This document shows, one piece after another, positions 10,907-42,485 of a DNA stretch of 64,000 nt. The notes below the pieces were generated by a model. The model was not told where the DNA came from. It was given only the letters and a program-made list of their open reading frames with translations, and did not search any database. The stretch comes from Halopiger aswanensis (lineage in GTDB: Archaea > Halobacteriota > Halobacteria > Halobacteriales > Natrialbaceae). The first letter of the stretch is position 1. Each line of letters opens with the position of its first letter. The DNA lies in assembly GCF_003610195.1 (NCBI RefSeq), contig NZ_RAPO01000001.1, positions 992,001 through 1,056,000 on the forward strand. Reading direction: 5' to 3'. A program made the position numbers and the translations under genes.

Positions 10907-13423
10907 ATGAGCGGAAATTCATATCGCGAAAAGGGACGTGCAGTGTTCCTGGCAGCGATGATGGTCCTCTCTGTCGTCGCAATGTCTGCTGCCTTCGCAG
11001 GCGCAGGCGCTGCCGTTAAGACACAGGATATCGGCGACGCAGGACCGACATACAACGAGAGGAGCGACTTGGAAAACAAGGACGTCTGGATTGGCCAAGA
11101 GGTAACCCTCGAACTTGAAGAGGAGTACACCTCGCTGCAGATTCGCCAAGGGTCGACCTATGACGAGGATGACGATGTCGTCCTCGAAAACCGTGTCGAC
11201 ACCAGCGATAACACGGTGACCTTCGATAGTTCCGAGCTCGAGGCAGGCAATCCGTACAACCTCAACCTTACCGGCGGAACCACGGACTCGAAGTGGAATG
11301 GGGTTGTCTTCTGGCTTGAATCGGAAGACCTCGAAACCGAGTTCACCAGCTCCACAGTTACCCAGGAGGGTAACGCAACCGTCTCGCTCACGTCTGACCG
11401 AGCGAACCAGTGGGTGAACGTTACGGCTGACAGTCTTGATGCAGACGATCTCGAGGATGTCTTCAGTTCGAACGACAACAGCGACGTTTCGGTTGAAAAT
11501 ACCGACAGTGACGAGGACCGCGTGACCCTCAACGTCACGGACGTCACTACTTACGACGACAACGACATTGAGTTCAGTGCAGACTTCAGCGATATCGACG
11601 CTGGCGAATACGAGTTCGATTTCGAGACGACGGACTCGCTCGCTGCGGATAACGCGACGGTCGAAGTTATCCAAGACGACGCGGAAGTCGAATTCGAGGG
11701 AGACGCCACCGGCGAGCAGGGTGAAATTATCGACATCACTGTCAGCACGCAGTACGTCGACAGTGGTGCAGTCCAGATCGGTGAGCTGGAAAACTACAAC
11801 TTCCAGGCCGCAACTGAGTTCGAGATCAACGAAGACGATCTCAACGAGGTCACCCTGCAGTTCAACACCAACGCACCGAGAGCGACCGATGCTGAAGATG
11901 CGTGGTCGCTCCACCCCAAGCACGACGACCACGATATCGAACTGGATAATCAAGCCGTGAACGCCTCGGCGCTCGACGAGTTCGAGCCCCTCGGTGCGTA
12001 CGATTACGAGATGCAGGCCGGCACGGACCTGAATACGTCGACCACTTACGACGATAACTACTACATCAACGACAACGACGTGACTGACACGGCGTTCTTC
12101 GACGTGAGCGAACCGTCACCTGTTGGTGACGTCACTACGCAGGTTGCGCCCGCAGGGGACGACGTGTTCGACTACAAGGACTTCAACGAGTCCACGATCA
12201 CTGACTCCGACGTCGTCGCCGACGGCGACCACCTCCTGCTGTCGGTCGACAGCTTCGACCAGTCCGGACTGGTTGACTCCTGGAAAGCAGAGGAATCTGT
12301 CGGTGAGGACCTCGGAAACCAGAGCATTAACATCACTATCGAAGAACAGGATCCTGGCCCGAACGTTGATGCCGAGGTCTGGACGACCAACCCCGATCAG
12401 GCAGACGAAGAAGACTACAACCTGATCAACGTCAGTCCCGCACACACTGACACTGAGGAATACGACGGTGATCTCCCACTGGTCATCGAATACGATGACG
12501 CTGACGAGGAACTCGAGGCTGACGCATCCTACGACCTGACCTACTCGGTCAGTGAGGACAGTCCGTACGTGTCCGATGAGGACGAAGAGATCGAGATTGA
12601 AGACGAGTTCACCCTCGAAAAACCCGAACTCGAGTGGAACGACAACGCTGAAGAAGTTCCCAATTCGGAAGACGCTGAAGTGACCGGCGACACGAACGTC
12701 GCCCCCGGTAGCGAGATCAGCACGAAGGCTCGCTCCGGAGGTAACTTCACGGACTCCGAAGATGCGATCGTCGCCGAGGACGGCACGTTCACCGCCACGT
12801 ACGACTTTAGCGAGTACGACGCTGGCATCACGTTCGACCTCACGGCGACCCACGCCGATCGGAACAAGTTCGACGACGAGTACGACAGCAACCTCGAAGA
12901 CGAAATCGAGTCGACGCTCGTCGACGCTGCGGAACCGCTGATCCAGCTCGACACCAGCGCACCGTCGGAAGTCACCGTCGGTGACGACGCCACGCTCGAC
13001 GTGACCGTCGCCAACAACGGTGGCGCAGCTGACGAAGTCGAGATCGGCGTTGACATCGCTGACGAACCCGTCGACAGTCAGAACGTCACGCTCGAGCCTG
13101 ACGAGGAGTGGACCCAGAGCTACTCCTTCGACACCTCGGAAGCTGGTGATATCAGCTGGGGCGTCACTGCTGGTGACGACTCCGCCAGTGGCACGCTGAG
13201 TGTCGTCGAAGAAGAGCCGACTGACGACAGTGGCTCCGACGACAGCGGCTCTGACGACAGCGGCTCTGACGACAGCGGCTCTGACGACAGCGGCTCTGAC
13301 GACAGCGGCTCTGACGACAGTGGCTCCGATGACGACGATGACAGCACACCCGGCTTCGGCGTTGCTGTTGCCGCGATCGCCCTGCTCGCAGCCGCCATGC
13401 TGGCCCTGCGCCGTCAGGACTAA
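10907..13423 (+). CDS. csg: S-layer surface glycoprotein with PGF-CTERM anchor
   Basis: This 838-aa protein is the probable main S-layer subunit. The N-terminus MSGNSYREKGRAVFLAAMM... is the special haloarchaeal surface-glycoprotein signal peptide, with cleavage expected after AGAGAA. The body is extremely acidic, beta-rich and carries about a dozen N-glycosylation sequons (NLT, NAT, NVT, NIT and others). Near residue 715 a CARDB-like stretch (VTVANNGGAADEVEIGVD) precedes a spacer of seven DDSGS units. The end is STPGFGVAVAAIALLAAAML-ALRRQD, a PGF-CTERM signal recognised by the archaeosortase ArtA. The in-frame extension to 10823 lies in the leader, so I start at 10907. Its glycan is probably made by the cluster at 47.7-64 kb. 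Confidence 0.92.
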   Translation: MSGNSYREKGRAVFLAAMMVLSVVAMSAAFAGAGAAVKTQDIGDAGPTYNERSDLENKDVWIGQEVTLELEEEYTSLQIRQGSTYDEDDDVVLENRVDTSDNTVTFDSSELEAGNPYNLNLTGGTTDSKWNGVVFWLESEDLETEFTSSTVTQEGNATVSLTSDRANQWVNVTADSLDADDLEDVFSSNDNSDVSVENTDSDEDRVTLNVTDVTTYDDNDIEFSADFSDIDAGEYEFDFETTDSLAADNATVEVIQDDAEVEFEGDATGEQGEIIDITVSTQYVDSGAVQIGELENYNFQAATEFEINEDDLNEVTLQFNTNAPRATDAEDAWSLHPKHDDHDIELDNQAVNASALDEFEPLGAYDYEMQAGTDLNTSTTYDDNYYINDNDVTDTAFFDVSEPSPVGDVTTQVAPAGDDVFDYKDFNESTITDSDVVADGDHLLLSVDSFDQSGLVDSWKAEESVGEDLGNQSINITIEEQDPGPNVDAEVWTTNPDQADEEDYNLINVSPAHTDTEEYDGDLPLVIEYDDADEELEADASYDLTYSVSEDSPYVSDEDEEIEIEDEFTLEKPELEWNDNAEEVPNSEDAEVTGDTNVAPGSEISTKARSGGNFTDSEDAIVAEDGTFTATYDFSEYDAGITFDLTATHADRNKFDDEYDSNLEDEIESTLVDAAEPLIQLDTSAPSEVTVGDDATLDVTVANNGGAADEVEIGVDIADEPVDSQNVTLEPDEEWTQSYSFDTSEAGDISWGVTAGDDSASGTLSVVEEEPTDDSGSDDSGSDDSGSDDSGSDDSGSDDSGSDDSGSDDDDDSTPGFGVAVAAIALLAAAMLALRRQD
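13223..13327 (+). repeat. Seven tandem 15-bp units coding DDSGS spacer
   Basis: Seven copies of a 15-bp unit (GACGACAGCGGCTCT with few changes) run in frame and encode DDSGS. They sit between the folded S-layer domains and the membrane-anchoring C-terminus. In other S-layer proteins this position is a Thr/Ser-rich O-glycosylated stalk. Copy number can be expected to vary by slippage. Confidence 0.9.
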
Positions 13424-35426: not shown

Positions 35427-36850
35427 TGTGCGGTCACCTCCGCTTCCGGCAGTTCGCGAACGTCGGTCACTTCACCCTGGATCGCCGCCGCGGCGACCAT
35501 CCGCGGGTTCATCAGGACGGTGCGCCCGTCCTTGCTGCCCTGGCGGCCGATGAAGTTCCGGTTCGAGGAGGAGGCGCAGGCCTCGTCGCCCTCGAGTTGG
35601 TCCTCGTTCATGCCGAGACACATCGAGCAGCCGGCGTTGCGCCACTCGAAGCCGGCCTCCTCGAAGATGTCTTTCAGGCCTTCTTCCTCGGCGGCCTGCT
35701 GGACGCGCTGGCTGCCGGGGACGACCATCGCGCGGACGTCGTCGTGGACCTCACGACCCTTGACGATACGGGCCGCACGTCGCAGGTCCGGCAGGCGAGC
35801 GTTCGTACAGGAACCGAGGAAGGCGACGTCGATGTCGTAGCCCTCCATCGTGTCGCCGGGCTCGACGCGCATGTGCTCCTGGGCGCGTCGGGCGGTGTCC
35901 TGCTTGTCCTCGGGCAGCTCCTCCGGTGCCGGGATCGGGTCCGTGATGCCGATGCCCTGGCCGGGCGTGGTGCCCCAGGTGACGACCGGCTCGAGTTCGT
36001 TCGCGTCGATGCGAACGATGTCGTCGTACTCGGCGTCCGCGTCGGAGCGGATGGACTCCCAGTACGGTTTGAGTTCCTCGAAGCGCTCGGGGTTCTCTTG
36101 GAAGTAGTCCGTCTCCTCGAGCCACTCGTAGGTGGTCTCGTCGGGGTTGACGTAGCCCGCGCGGGCGCCGCCCTCGATGGACATGTTACAGATCGACATC
36201 CGACCCTCCATGCCCAGCGACTCGATGGCCTCGCCGGCGTACTCGTAGACGTAGCCGACGCCGCCCTCGGTGCCGAGTCGGCGGATGATCTCGAGGATGA
36301 TGTCCTTGGCCTCGACGCCCTCGCCGAGTTCGCCGTCGACCTGGATCTTACGGACCTTCTGCTTCTCCATGGCGACGGTGCCCGTCGCGAGCACGTCCCG
36401 GATCTGGCTCGTGCCGATACCGAACGCGAGCGCGCCGAAGGCGCCGTGGGTGGAGGTGTGGGAGTCGCCGCAGACGATCGTCTTGCCGGGCTGGGTCAGG
36501 CCCTGCTCCGGTCCGATGACGTGGACGATCCCCTGATCGCCCGTCGTCGGGTCCGAGAACTCGATGCCCGCCTCGCGGACGTTCTCCTCGAGTTCGGCCA
36601 TCATCTCCTCGGCCGCGTCCTCCTCGTAGGGGCGGGACTGATCGGCCGTCGGGACGATGTGGTCGACCGTCGCGTGGGTCAGTTCGGGGTAGGCGACCTC
36701 GAGGTCGCGCTCGCGGAGCATCCCGAACGCCTGCGGGCTCGTCACCTCGTGGATGAGGTGGAGGCCGATGAACAGCTGGTCCTGTCCGGTCGGCAGCGTC
36801 GTGACTTTGTGTCGATCCCAAACCTTGTCGTACAGCGTGCCTTCGCTCAT
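35423..36850 (-). CDS. leuC: 3-isopropylmalate dehydratase large subunit
   Basis: LeuC holds the [4Fe-4S] cluster that isomerises isopropylmalate. The 475-aa protein starts [13 protein letters not shown]. It shows [21 protein letters not shown] and the cluster cysteines in [17 protein letters not shown] and [14 protein letters not shown]. It overlaps leuD downstream and the 113-aa gene upstream, each by ATGA. This is the bacterial-type (long) LeuC rather than the short archaeal homoaconitase-like form. Confidence 0.95.
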
Positions 36851-37188
36851 TCCTCGTCCTCTACCGGGTCTACCGGGTTTCGTTGCCCGCGCTCGAAGAC
36901 GCGGTTCGCGTCCTCGGCGTCGTGGGGCGGCGTGTGATCCACGTCCGCCATGGTGGTGTCTCGTTTTCGCTCGGCTGTTCCGTCGTCGGTCTCGTCGGCC
37001 TCGGCGTCAGCCGGCCGGCCACCGTCGGAGCGACGCTCCGACGAGGATCGCGAACCATCGGTTCGCTCACCGCCGTCCGCCGCGACCGTCGGGCCGCGGC
37101 TGAACAGGCGGCCGGTCGTCTCCCCCGTGTAGGGGTTGGTGTGGCTGACGTCGGCCATCGTTCGCGCGTCGTTTGCGTTGTCGCTCAT
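36847..37188 (-). CDS. 113-aa hydrophilic protein with a duplicated MADVxHTxP motif, between ilvC and leuC
   Basis: The protein is intrinsically disordered in composition (Asp, Glu, Arg, Ser, Gly). It holds two copies of one motif: [22 protein letters not shown] (residues 11-32) and [22 protein letters not shown] (residues 80-101). It lies 21 bp after ilvC and overlaps leuC by ATGA, so it is clearly part of the operon. I recall a small protein in this place in other haloarchaea, but its function is not known to me. It may bind an enzyme of the operon. Confidence 0.85.
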
Positions 37189-38265: not shown

Positions 38266-38947
38266 CGGAAGTTGTCTGCGGTTGTTGTTGGGTGTGGTTC
38301 GCCTCGTCGGCGGTCGATGCTTCCGCGCTCGAGCCGGCCGGTGCGGCCGTCTCGTCGGTGCCGCGGGCGAGCGCCGTCGTCCCGGTCCGGGAAATCTCCC
38401 GGATGCCGAACTGACTGAACGTCTCGATCGCGGCTTCGATCTTCTGTCGCGCGCCCGTGATCTCGAAGGTCGCCGTCTCCGGACTCGAGTCGACGGTCGT
38501 CGCGTCGTACATGTCCGCGACGGCGCTGACGGCGGCGGGATCGTGAGCGTCGACCTTCACGAGCGCCAGTTCCCGCTGCATCGCGTCGGGCTCGAGTTCC
38601 CGGACGGAGACGACCGGCAGCAGCTTCCGGAGCTGCTTTTTGATCTGGTCGATTCCGGGGTCGGGCTCCTCGACGACGACCGTGATACGGGCCCAGTCGT
38701 CGTCCTTTGTCGGCCCGACGGTCAGGCTCTCGATGTTGAACTGCCGCCTCGAGAACAGCCCCGAGACTTCCGCGAGCACGCCGGGCTCGTGTTCGACCAG
38801 CGCCGAGATGACGGTCCGGCGCGGCTCGTGGGTCGCCTCGACCTCGGGGTCGATGCGGATCCCCTGCTTGTTGCGCCGGCCCTCGGGAGAGGGGCGTTCC
38901 TCGGGTGCCGGTCCCTCGAGTCCGCGTTCGAACTCGTCGCCGCTCAT
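38258..38947 (-). CDS. ilvN: Acetolactate synthase small regulatory subunit
   Basis: IlvN binds branched-chain amino acids and regulates the catalytic subunit. The 229-aa protein has an N-terminal ACT domain ([33 protein letters not shown], quoted in part) and a second ACT-like domain ([20 protein letters not shown]...[13 protein letters not shown]). Disordered charged tails lie at both ends. I start at ATG 38947 (MSGDEFERG), which overlaps ilvB by ATGA; the open frame continuing upstream is an ilvB shadow. Confidence 0.94.
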
Positions 38948-40770
38948 AGCTGGTCCTCCGTCAGTGCGAACTGGCCGTTGTCGCCGCCGCTGGGCACCAT
39001 CGGGTAGACGTTGGCCTGCGGGTCGATGTGGACGTCGATGACCGACGGCCCGTCGTACGCGATGGCCGATTCGATGGTGTCGGCGACCTCGTCGTAGTCG
39101 TCGATGCGGTACCCCTGCGCGCCGAAGGCTTCGGCGAGCTTGTCGAACTCGGGCATCCAGCCGTAGTCCGACGCGGAGTGGCGCCCGTCGAAGAAGGCGT
39201 CCTGCCACTGGCGGACCATCCCGATGTACTCGTTGTTGAGCACCGCGACGGTGATGTCTAAGTTCTCGCGGACCGCGACCGACAGGCCCTGCAGCGTCAT
39301 CAGGAACGAGCCGTCGCCGTCGACGCAGATCACTTCCTGATCGTCGTCGGCCGCGACTCGAGCCCCGATGGCTGCGGGCAGGCCGTAGCCCATCGTCCCG
39401 AGGCCGTGACTCGAGACCCACGTGCGCGGCTCGGTGAACGTCCAGTACTGGCAGGCCCACATCTGGTGCTGGCCGACGCCGGTCGTCACGATGGCCTCGT
39501 CGCTCGTGGCCTCGTCTAAGGCCTCGACGACGAACTGCGGCTGGACGGGTTTGTCGTCGGGCGTCTCGTAGTCCATCGAATACTCGGACTTCCACTGCTG
39601 GCACTGTGCGCGCCACTTCTTCGCCTGCGGCGACTCGTCGACCGCCTCGGCCAGTTGCTCGACGACGGTTTCGGCGTCGCCGACCAGCGGGTAGTCCGCG
39701 TAGATGTTCTTCGAGATCTCGGCGGGGTCGATGTCGACGTGGATGACCTCCGCCTCGGGGGCGAAGGTCTCGATGCCGCCGGTCAGGCGGTCGTCGAACC
39801 GGGTGCCGATGCCGATCAGCGTATCGCAGTGCGTGATCGCCATGTTGGCGTAGCCGGTCCCGTGCATCCCCGCCATCTCGAGGGACAGTTCGTGATCCTC
39901 GGGGAACGAACCGAGGCCGGGCATCGTCGTGATGACCGGAATCTCGTGTTCGATAGCGAACTCGCGGCAGGCCTCGCTGGCCTCGCCCTTGATGACGCCG
40001 CCGCCCAGCAGCATGACGGGTCGCTCGGCGTTCTCGATCCGTTCGGCTGCGGCCGCGACGATTTCCGAGTCGGCCCGCTCCTGGACTTCGTAGGTGTCGG
40101 GCGTCTTCGGCGCGTCGGGCTCGGTGTCGGTGTCGGACTTGGTGATGTCCTTGGGCAGGTCGACCAGCGTCGGCCCCGGTCGACCCTCGCTTGCGAGCGC
40201 GAAGGCCTCGCTGACGTCGGTGCCGACGCGGTCCGGATCGGACGCGAAGGCGTTGTTCTTCGTGACCGGCGTCGTGACGCCGGTGGTGTCGGTCTCCTGG
40301 AACGCGTCGTTGCCGACGAACTCCGTCGGGACCTGGCCGGTCAGCGCGACCATCGGGTCCGAGTCCATGTCGGCGTCCGCCAGGCCCGTCACGAGGTTCG
40401 TCGCGCCCGGGCCCGAGGTCGCCAGGCAGATCCCCGGCTTGCCCGAGACGATGCCGTAGGCGTCGGCCGCGTGGGCCGCGCCCTGCTCGTGGGCCATCGT
40501 GATGTGCGTGATCTCGGAGTCGTAGAGGGCGTCGTAGACGGGCATGATCGCCCCGCCCTGCACGCCGAAGGCGTACTCGACGCCCGCGTTCTCGAGCGCA
40601 CGGACGACGGCCTCGGCGCCGTTAGTGACCGGCTCGGGCGTCGTCTCCGACGCCGAATCGGCTTCGGGATCCGGTTTGGCGGCGTCCGGCGCCGCGCTGT
40701 CCGTGATCTGGTCGTCTGCCTGTTCTTCCTCCGCGTCGGCTTGTGTAACCGGTGTTGCGCGTTCGCTCAT
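38944..40770 (-). CDS. ilvB: Acetolactate synthase large catalytic subunit
   Basis: IlvB is the ThDP-dependent enzyme that begins branched-chain amino acid synthesis. The 608-aa protein has a 45-residue acidic N-terminal tail, then EAVVRALENAGVEYAFGVQGG. The catalytic Glu is in AHEQGAAHAADAYG, and the ThDP-binding motif runs from GDGSFLMTLQGLS to AVLNN. A G-rich ribosome-binding sequence (GGGGGAG) lies 5-11 bases before its ATG. The roughly 400-bp region upstream carries a two-ORF leader described separately. Confidence 0.95.
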   Translation of the reverse strand: MSERATPVTQADAEEEQADDQITDSAAPDAAKPDPEADSASETTPEPVTNGAEAVVRALENAGVEYAFGVQGGAIMPVYDALYDSEITHITMAHEQGAAHAADAYGIVSGKPGICLATSGPGATNLVTGLADADMDSDPMVALTGQVPTEFVGNDAFQETDTTGVTTPVTKNNAFASDPDRVGTDVSEAFALASEGRPGPTLVDLPKDITKSDTDTEPDAPKTPDTYEVQERADSEIVAAAAERIENAERPVMLLGGGVIKGEASEACREFAIEHEIPVITTMPGLGSFPEDHELSLEMAGMHGTGYANMAITHCDTLIGIGTRFDDRLTGGIETFAPEAEVIHVDIDPAEISKNIYADYPLVGDAETVVEQLAEAVDESPQAKKWRAQCQQWKSEYSMDYETPDDKPVQPQFVVEALDEATSDEAIVTTGVGQHQMWACQYWTFTEPRTWVSSHGLGTMGYGLPAAIGARVAADDDQEVICVDGDGSFLMTLQGLSVAVRENLDITVAVLNNEYIGMVRQWQDAFFDGRHSASDYGWMPEFDKLAEAFGAQGYRIDDYDEVADTIESAIAYDGPSVIDVHIDPQANVYPMVPSGGDNGQFALTEDQL

Positions 40771-40832
40771 CGAGTCTCCCCCGCCGCGATGCGGCGAGCA
40801 GTCGTGGGTTTGGGTGTACGGTACGGTGTCAT
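40767..40832 (-). CDS. 21-codon upstream ORF overlapping the ilvB start
   Basis: The peptide starts MTPYRTPKPTT and ends AAGETR; it contains five Thr and four Arg and no Leu or Val. Its TGA overlaps the ilvB ATG as ATGA, the same coupling used by the other genes of this operon. A 6-bp hairpin (40782-40796, arms CGCCGC/GCGGCG) lies inside this ORF next to the ilvB ribosome-binding site. Ribosomes translating this ORF would melt it. Confidence 0.45.
   Translation of the reverse strand: MTPYRTPKPTTARRIAAGETR
40782..40796 (-). promoter_or_regulatory. Stem-loop next to the ilvB ribosome-binding site
   Basis: CGCCGC and GCGGCG pair perfectly around a 3-base loop. On the mRNA the stem ends one base before the GGGGAG ribosome-binding sequence of ilvB. 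It could hinder 30S binding unless opened by translation of the overlapping upstream ORF. Confidence 0.4.
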
Positions 40833-40894
40833 CTGCTGGGTGTGTGATCGCTCTGAAAACGGTGCGAACCCGAAATCGAAGCTGCGACGGACTA

Positions 40895-40921
40895 GTAGAG
40901 GTGGGGCTAAAGCGCCCCTAC
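40895..40921 (-). promoter_or_regulatory. Hairpin containing the stop codon of the first ilvB leader ORF
   Basis: On the mRNA GGGGC pairs with GCCCC around loop GCTTTA, and outer GTAG can pair with CTAC. The TAG stop of the 27-codon leader ORF lies at the loop and 3' arm, so a ribosome stalled on the final Ile, Val or Leu codons would cover the 5' arm. No U-run follows, which argues against a simple intrinsic terminator. Confidence 0.5.
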
Positions 40922-40990
40922 AATACGAATCGGAGCGAGCGCGCTGGTGTCGACCGCGAAGCGAGCCGACGTCGTTGCGCGTTCCGTCAT
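40907..40990 (-). CDS. 27-codon leader peptide upstream of ilvB, ending in Ile, Ile, Val and Leu codons
   Basis: The ORF begins MTERATTSARF and ends PIRIVGAL before TAG. Four of its last seven codons encode branched-chain amino acids, the end products of the downstream genes. A TATA-like box centred near 41023 predicts a transcript start about 7 bases before this ATG, so it would be the first codon met by the ribosome. Arrangement and codon content resemble bacterial amino-acid attenuator leaders. Expression is not proved. Confidence 0.55.
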   Translation of the reverse strand: MTERATTSARFAVDTSALAPIRIVGAL

Positions 40991-41016
40991 TACTGACGAT
41001 GTAGGTCGCTCGACTC

Positions 41017-41030
41017 ACATAATCTTTGCG
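41017..41030 (-). promoter_or_regulatory. TATA-like box of the ilvB transcript
   Basis: On the minus strand GCAAAGATTATGTG is centred about 33 bp before the ATG of the 27-codon leader ORF. It is the most AT-rich element between leuA and ilvB. It implies a leader of about 230 nt before ilvB. Confidence 0.45.
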
Positions 41031-41171
41031 TGTCGAGCAACGTCTGCCCCTGCGGCCGTCGCTGCGAGTGCGATCACGAGTCCGAACGCGAGTCGGCCCG
41101 CTCGAGCTATTTGCGGTGCTCGAGCGGTATAGCCGACGCTCGCGAACGGTGGCAAACGGGGAGGACATCCC

Positions 41172-42485
41172 TCAGGCGCGCACCTCCTCGCCCTCGCGCT
41201 GGCGGTCGACGCCAGCTTCCTCCGCGAAGCGCTCGAGGTCGCTGACCGTGACCCGGCGCTTCTCGGCACCGTAGTCCTTGACCCGGCGGGTGACCGCGCG
41301 GACCTCGTCGTCGGTCGGCTCGAAGCCGAGTTCGTCGAGGCGCTCCCGTACCGAGTGGGTTCCGGTGTGTTTGCCCATGACCAGTCGGCGCTCGGCGCCG
41401 ACCATCTCGGGGGTCATGACGCCGGGCTCGAAGGTGTCGGAGTTCTCGATGACGCCGGCGGCGTGGATGCCGCTCTCGTGGGAGAAGGCGTTGTCGCCGA
41501 CGACGGGCTTGTTGCCCGGCGTCTCGATGGCGCTCTTCTCCTCGACGACCTCGGAGAGTTCGGTAATGCGCGTCGTGTCGATCCCCGTGTCGGTCTGGTA
41601 GAGGGATTCGACGGCCATCACGAACTCCTCGTAGGCGGCGTTGCCGGCGCGTTCGCCGATGGAGTTGACCGACACCTGCGCCTGATCGGCGCCCGCTTCG
41701 ATGCCGGCCAAGGCGTTCGCGGTGGCCAGCCCGAAGTCGTCGTGGGTGTGGACGTCGATCCGCGCGTCGGTGTGGGCGTCGACCTTCTCGATCATCGCCT
41801 TGAACCGACTCGGCGTCGCGACGCCGCAGGTGTCGGGAATGTTGATCCAGTCGGTTCCGGCCTCCGTGACCGCTTCGATCACGTCGATCAGGAACGCCTC
41901 GTCGGTCCGCGTCGCGTCCATCGGCGAGAACATGCAGACCGCTCCCGCCTCTGTGATGCGTTCGACCGATTCGACTGCGCGCTGTACGACCTCGTCCCGG
42001 GTGGCGTGCATCGAATCCTCGATCTGGACGTCGCTGGTGCTGACGAAGGTGTGCACCATCTCGACGCCGGAATCCAGCGCCGCTTCGATGTCTTTGTCGA
42101 CGACGCGGGCTAACCCGCAGGTGGTCGTCGACGTCGAGGAAGCGATATCACGAACGGCCTCGAACTCCGCGTCGGAGTTGACGGGGAACCCGGCTTCGAT
42201 GACGTGGGTCCCCATCTCGTCCAAGATCGAGGCGATCTGCCGTTTATCGTCGTACGAGAACGAGGTTCCGGGCGACTGCTCGCCGTCCCGGAGGGTCGTA
42301 TCGAAGACACGTGCTGACTCTATTTCGTCAGTGGAATCTAACGTGCCCTGGAAGAACTCGACCCCCCTGACTGGTGTCAGAGGACGAACCGTCTTGTGAA
42401 GACATTGTATCAGAATCCGAGGCGGGACTGGATATATAAAACTAACGCTGAACCGAACCAGAACTGACGAGTTACCACGGCACAC
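41172..42485 (-). CDS. leuA: 2-isopropylmalate synthase / citramalate synthase family enzyme
   Basis: This enzyme condenses acetyl-CoA with 2-oxoisovalerate (LeuA) or pyruvate (CimA). It has the signature FDTTLRDGEQSPGTSFSYDDK, the metal site HTHDDFGLATANALAGIEAGA and NPGNKPVVGDNAFSHESGIHAAGV. It lacks the long C-terminal leucine-binding domain of bacterial LeuA (it ends soon after the HTG motif region), so leucine feedback may differ. The start is uncertain. The only ATG in frame (42485) lies before a strong TATA box at 42433-42442. The ATG that box would serve (42405) opens another frame. The conserved protein begins near residue 41 (RGVEFFQGTLDS). Confidence 0.9.
   Translation of the reverse strand: MCRGNSSVLVRFSVSFIYPVPPRILIQCLHKTVRPLTPVRGVEFFQGTLDSTDEIESARVFDTTLRDGEQSPGTSFSYDDKRQIASILDEMGTHVIEAGFPVNSDAEFEAVRDIASSTSTTTCGLARVVDKDIEAALDSGVEMVHTFVSTSDVQIEDSMHATRDEVVQRAVESVERITEAGAVCMFSPMDATRTDEAFLIDVIEAVTEAGTDWINIPDTCGVATPSRFKAMIEKVDAHTDARIDVHTHDDFGLATANALAGIEAGADQAQVSVNSIGERAGNAAYEEFVMAVESLYQTDTGIDTTRITELSEVVEEKSAIETPGNKPVVGDNAFSHESGIHAAGVIENSDTFEPGVMTPEMVGAERRLVMGKHTGTHSVRERLDELGFEPTDDEVRAVTRRVKDYGAEKRRVTVSDLERFAEEAGVDRQREGEEVRA
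42328..42405 (-). other. 25-codon ORF in another frame at the leuA 5' end
   Basis: The ATG at 42405 lies about 32 bp from the centre of a TATA box (ATATATAA) and would be the first codon of a leaderless mRNA. The peptide starts MSSQDGSSSDTSQGG and stops inside leuA. If one G of the G6 run near 42362-42367 were missing, this frame would join leuA as MSSQDGSSSDTSQG-VEFFQG. It may be the true leuA start with a frameshift, or a leader ORF. Confidence 0.45.
42432..42442 (-). promoter_or_regulatory. TATA box of leuA
   Basis: The minus strand reads TTTTATATATCC here, the clearest TATA box in this part of the window. It would start transcription near 42405-42412, just at the ATG of the out-of-frame 25-codon ORF. 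Confidence 0.6.

Follow-up and report, generated by a model that had tools for sequence, protein, structure and literature searches.

What does the short open reading frame (ORF) in front of the ilvBNC operon of Halopiger aswanensis do, and might it allow a translating ribosome to sense the amino acids that the operon provides? Leader-peptide attenuation is a textbook mode of bacterial control; in the literature searched, mostly without subscription papers, so that absence is not proof, no archaeal case was found. An earlier note on the window analysed here (a stretch of 64,000 nucleotides) had proposed that a 27-codon ORF on the minus strand is an amino-acid-sensing leader of ilvBNC, and the coordinates and peptide that it gave for this ORF proved exact. 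The features of the locus are collected in Table 1.

Table 1. Features of the ilvB upstream region, in window positions
Feature	Position	Strand	Basis or remark
Leader ORF, 27 aa, MTERATTSARFAVDTSALAPIRIVGAL and stop	40907..40990	-	window sequence; conserved in-frame ORF
TATA-like box TTAT, predicted promoter	41019..41022	-	window sequence
Predicted transcript start	about 40994-40997	-	from TATA-like box
Sensor codons Ile21 ATT (40930-40928), Arg22, Ile23 ATT (40924-40922), Val24 GTA (40921-40919)	40919..40930	-	
Core hairpin GGGGC-GCTTTA-GCCCC	40903..40918	-	TAG stop (40909-40907) spans loop and first base of 3' arm
Extended stem-loop, 5' arm holding the sensor codons (GAUUcGUA...UACuAGUC)	40890..40931	-	predicted fold of the window
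Second uORF, MTPYRTPKPTTARRIAAGETR and stop	40767..40832	-	stop TGA overlaps ilvB ATG (ATGA)
ilvB, acetolactate synthase large subunit, presumed controlled gene	38944..40770	-	followed by ilvN and ilvC

The leader ORF and its predicted promoter across the haloarchaea

Upstream regions were gathered via IlvB homologues from 30 genomes and 80 contigs; judged by IlvB, the relatives of the window are Natrialbaceae. The homologues share the same upstream arrangement. The element was present at 109 loci, 97 of them distinct (counts are of genomes that are mutually related), and was missing at a single locus, where the contig breaks off 72 nt upstream of the ilvB match. At 95 of the 97 distinct loci, an ATG-started frame in register with the window ORF remains open up to the hairpin; the two alternative frames give 0 and 11 such loci. 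The in-frame ORFs end x-Ile-Val-Gly-Ala/Val. ATG codons located 30-105 nt before the core likewise fall into the leader frame in 152 of 166 cases (152/12/2 by frame). The TATA-like box that had been noticed before the leader is situated 32 nt from the ATG in the window. A box of this kind lies 21-36 nt before the in-frame ATG at 94/97 loci, with the first T of TTAT exactly 32 nt away at 72/97, and the spacing is thus kept in relatives. A short ORF is accordingly found between predicted promoter and structural gene; an AT-rich box is clear 5' of the leader and none is clear 5' of ilvB.

Searched with a covariance model made from a 46-sequence alignment, 280 of 292 haloarchaeal genomes proved to carry the element, and it was represented in 72 of 77 genera. 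One genome scored as lacking it (G062) harbors a variant ending AVVGAR before ilvB. Across the rest of the phylum (about 240 genomes) only six weak matches were obtained (E 0.003-0.006), near the chance number and none convincing, and a search of positions 40700-41200 against Rfam matched no family up to E = 1. The leader ORF and its branched-chain codons are hence kept class-wide, and the lack of conservation in relatives that the earlier note had named as a refuting result did not occur; we conclude that the ORF is real and deeply conserved, far above chance.

Leader peptides have a median length of 27 aa (range 16-41 aa) and a median pI of about 11.7. Their bodies vary in length and sequence and are strongly basic, conservation being confined to the tail, and the synonymous excess within the body is modest (42% observed vs 30% expected). 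The ORF might encode a functional small protein, a reading with which its class-wide conservation agrees. Bodies this variable and basic are, however, unlike typical haloarchaeal proteins and make a stable halophilic product unlikely, while the tail alone is conserved; we regard this reading as extremely improbable.

Candidate sensor codons and the adjoining hairpin

The codon at the core of the tail specifies Ile at 96 of 97 loci (ATT 86, ATC 9, ATA 1) and is followed at 96/97 by the Val codon GTA, and the two codons preceding this Ile-Val pair are enriched in Ile, Leu and Val. The share of Ile rises from 0.7% in the body to 46% in the four final sensor codons, and that of the three branched-chain residues combined (Ile, Leu, Val) from 14.8% to 79.7%. 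The codons used at the sensor are normally rare, ATT constituting 4.9% of Ile and GTA 0.4% of Val codons within ilvB genes. The leader of Natronomonas aquatica (locus L107) ends GIIGIIGIIGAPQ, and IRIRIV is repeated in two Halobiforma loci. The earlier note had counted Ile, Ile, Val and Leu among the last seven codons: Ile-Val is indeed conserved, and one or two codons ahead of it another Ile, Leu or Val usually occurs, but the terminal Leu varies, the residue after Gly-Ala being A, S, L, F, V, Y, P or a stop. Leu was therefore rejected as a component of the signal, which we take to be Ile/Val.

Val is followed by Gly at 97/97 loci and then by Ala or Val. Such constancy could point to nascent-chain arrest, in which the peptide IVGA itself would stall the ribosome upon a free metabolite. 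Since the hairpin arm GGGGC encodes Gly-Ala, the invariance of these residues is accounted for otherwise, and leaders of valS and pheS (see below) show the same design although their sensor residues differ, so that arrest by the peptide appears highly improbable. At the nucleotide level, ATTGTAGGGGC is near-invariant among loci, to a degree that renders codon and RNA constraint inseparable at the ilvB sensor; it is the comparison with valS and pheS that breaks the tie.

The stop codon of the window ORF had been placed within a GGGGC/GCCCC hairpin, and the last base of TAG is part of its 3' arm; among the 97 ilvB loci the stop usually lies inside or beside the hairpin. GGGG/CCCC arms pair in all 97 folds (median z -2.3), at least four pairs outside the core hairpin form at 82/97 loci, and the core hairpin has a probability of 0.95 within the full 5' region, the folding energy of which is itself not unusual (z -0.1). 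Loop length is variable, mostly 5, 6 or 8 nt. The arms are invariant in the 46-sequence alignment, and pair-level covariation is limited because these G/C arms never vary; the two innermost (closing) pairs of the helix do show compensatory changes, C-G to U-A and U-A to G-C. At every locus examined, 3 nt separate the core Ile codon from the start of the hairpin. With this spacing, a ribosome waiting at the codon would hold the 5' arm, and the hairpin is thus placed where a stalled ribosome could alter it. No competing antiterminator hairpin was conserved or outstanding in folds of the 5' region.

A U-run 3' of the hairpin is absent in the loci examined, where only a pyrimidine-rich stretch is found. 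This absence had been noted before and taken to make intrinsic termination less likely than translational control or a factor-dependent stop; the observation stands, but absence of a U-run does not exclude termination. According to the part of PMC7237163 used here, hairpins lie upstream of 503 termination sites in Haloferax volcanii, and a single hairpin that had been cloned brought 59% of transcripts to an end in vivo, rendering termination without a U-run plausible; that part draws no link to leader ORFs or amino acids. Masking of the ilvB Shine-Dalgarno (SD) sequence by the pyrimidines after the hairpin was considered by eye and rejected, the sequence being unconserved and the full fold being without such pairing.

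Gene-matched leaders of valS, pheS and further genes

Second copies of the element were inspected, and most of them precede valS (13 loci), recognised by the N-terminal sequence of its product. In the window's genome (G000) the pattern GGGGCN{1,6}TAGCCCC has exactly two occurrences, one at the ilvB leader and one upstream of valS, where the leader (L169, G000:C1:1372724-1372772(-)) reads MPAAVAVSADPFDGPRGAVFVGAP and then a stop. The valS leaders end V-x-V-G-A, VVVGA or something close to these, Val taking the place of the sensor Ile: their last four codons at the 13 loci comprise 28 Val and 0 Ile in 52 codons. One valS locus (L172) carries GGGCC/GGCCC instead of GGGGC/GCCCC, a further compensatory change.

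We examined pheS because a dRNA-seq study of H. volcanii reported that long 5'-UTRs can contain small ORFs, among them a 26-aa one upstream of pheS (PMC4983044). A leader ending GFGFFF or a variant was present at 25 of 30 haloarchaeal pheS loci, in which Phe occupies 88 of 225 tail codons vs 2 of 433 body codons; among control ORFs, 1 of 800 was as Phe-rich. The H. volcanii uORF is consistent with the Phe-rich leaders of other haloarchaea, and the part of PMC4983044 used here, which tables 16 uORFs from 5'-UTRs of 150-250 nt, neither includes ilvB nor proposes a sensing role. The pheS leaders have the same layout without the ilvB-type sequence core. Several pheS loci harbor the stop codon within a G/C hairpin, as in locus L190 (G000:C3), with the leader MASESHAGGVVSQPQRPRSGFGFFFPA and its stop inside CCCGCG-TAA-CGCGGG. 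The identity of the sensor codons therefore follows the downstream gene, Ile/Val before ilvB, Val before valS and Phe before pheS, clustered in each case at the control point. Nothing else argues as strongly for amino-acid sensing by the leader ORFs as this fit of codons to genes. Together with class-wide conservation, it strongly supports the reading of the ilvB leader as an amino-acid sensor.

The same comparison bears on the idea that the conserved feature is a structured RNA or the operator of a DNA-binding regulator (palindrome GTAGGGGC..GCCCCTAC), with the ORF incidental. Its appeal lies in the GTAGGGG...CCCC core, near-invariant at all loci. The frame bias of 95 vs 0 and 11 and the fixed TATA-ATG spacing speak against it, however, and so does the variable loop length, unlike a rigid operator. 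Ile/Val enrichment is restricted to the tail and tracks the downstream gene, pheS leaders retain the layout without the sequence core, and Rfam offers no match. We consider an RNA or operator of this kind improbable.

One genome of 2.4 Mb (G157) was scanned for further cases. A scan for biased small ORFs was too noisy to be used, with the pheS and ilvB leaders in the top few dozen; a stricter scan for ORFs with the stop in a hairpin retained 7 of 214, trpS ranking first and ilvB second. The candidate trpS leader (L325, near 11750-11831) is MASTSPDGRRWHPREVDSVAVAGRRA, with its stop in a hairpin and one Trp codon; for plasmid trpS copies of Haladaptatus, no leader was apparent in the annotation. 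Separately, an ilvB-type leader ending RLIVGV and a stop (L160, G143:C2:397905-397952) precedes a small protein that is neither IlvB nor ValS, and a protein similar to it is encoded in the window between ilvC and leuC (36847-37188).

A different arrangement was observed at leuA (41172 to about 42359(-)). Downstream of its TATA box (42440-42433), the leuA frame offers no start codon that could be used. The preceding frame is opened by a conserved ATG at the 5' end (42405-42328(-), MSSQDGSSSDTSQGGRVLPGHVRFH and stop), and LeuA goes on in frame +1. Where the two frames overlap, the sequence CGA GTT CTT C, with the shift site at 42354-42351, is nearly invariant among 77 loci examined. leuA is thus a candidate for programmed +1 frameshifting on the rare Leu codon CTT, which is perhaps leucine-sensing. 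The start-codon problem of leuA2 and possible slippage have been raised earlier for a few species (PMC8305020).

A putative ribosome-operated attenuator and its relation to known systems

Between leader and ilvB, the gap ranges from 76 to 223 nt. Of 44 loci at which the ilvB start is fixed, 40 have an ORF that ends at position +4 of that start and is variable in sequence and length, and an SD-like motif precedes ilvB at 39/44. Overlap and motif fit termination-reinitiation, and the second uORF is likely to couple translation to ilvB; SD motifs inside ORFs have been proposed to serve reinitiation in H. volcanii (PMC3986360).

Based on these features, we consider it likely, with a probability of roughly 0.7, that the leader peptide lets the ribosome gauge the supply of Ile- and Val-tRNA for ilvBNC, the hairpin acting as an attenuator set by ribosome position. 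The mRNA would begin at the leader ATG or a few bases upstream of it, and the TATA-ATG spacing suggests that the leader is read first. The ribosome would then have to decode Ile-x-Ile-Val in rare codons just before the G/C hairpin with the stop in its loop or 3' side. When Ile or Val is scarce, it would wait at the sensor and cover the 5' arm, leaving the hairpin open and ilvBNC expressed; when both are ample, it would finish the peptide and leave at the stop, the hairpin would close and most transcription would end. As no conserved competing antiterminator was seen, the ribosome itself may take that role. On full-length transcripts, ribosomes would reach ilvB through termination-reinitiation from the overlapping second uORF. 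The model requires that release be quick relative to stalling, since a terminating ribosome covers the hairpin too.

The main rival keeps the sensing of Ile/Val by the leader but has hairpin and second uORF alter initiation or reinitiation at ilvB rather than termination. The overlap of the second uORF with the ilvB start (40/44), the SD-like motif (39/44), a hairpin without a U-run and possible reinitiation via intragenic SD motifs in H. volcanii (PMC3986360) would all suit such translational control. Simple reinitiation from the leader, however, would lower ilvB in starvation, which is the wrong sign. No conserved pairing between leader and ilvB start was seen, the core hairpin having a probability of 0.95 in the full fold, and the distance to be bridged varies from 76 to 223 nt. 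Translational control hence remains a serious but rather unlikely alternative to the attenuator.

Taken together, haloarchaea probably perform ribosome-based amino-acid sensing through gene-matched leaders (Ile/Val at ilvB, Val at valS, Phe at pheS), a control known so far from bacteria. It further seems reasonably likely that these belong to a general, separately evolved haloarchaeal sensing, comprising leaders at the 5' end of ilvB, valS, pheS and perhaps trpS, and the +1 frameshift at a Leu codon of leuA. If true, this would establish attenuation-type regulation in Archaea for the first time. Leaders with codons matched to ilvB, valS and pheS throughout a class would imply close coupling of transcription and translation in archaea, and would give a function to leader ORFs and hairpin terminators that transcriptome studies have so far only catalogued.

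Among known systems, the enterobacterial ilv (ilvL, ilvB leader) and pheST (pheM) operons have leader peptides with many residues of the amino acid that the operon synthesises or loads onto tRNA, and their attenuators consist of intrinsic terminators with U-runs and competing hairpins. The haloarchaeal leaders resemble them in that they precede both a biosynthetic operon and pheS. They differ in that neither a U-run terminator nor competing hairpins were found at ilvB; lacking these, and a match in Rfam, the ilvB leader is not classed with the classical trp/ilv type. In Corynebacterium, translation of a leader controls transcription attenuation of ilvBNC (uORF and ilvB-II motif; PMC10272879, PMC11857589). 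Both systems combine a short, branched-chain-rich uORF before ilvBNC with RNA hairpins, but the Corynebacterium system is bacterial and has multiple alternative hairpins, whereas the haloarchaeal one has its ATG at the predicted 5' end and a single hairpin with the stop in or beside it, and is without a conserved antiterminator. We therefore propose that the ilvB leader represents a new archaeal variant of leader-peptide, attenuator-like control.
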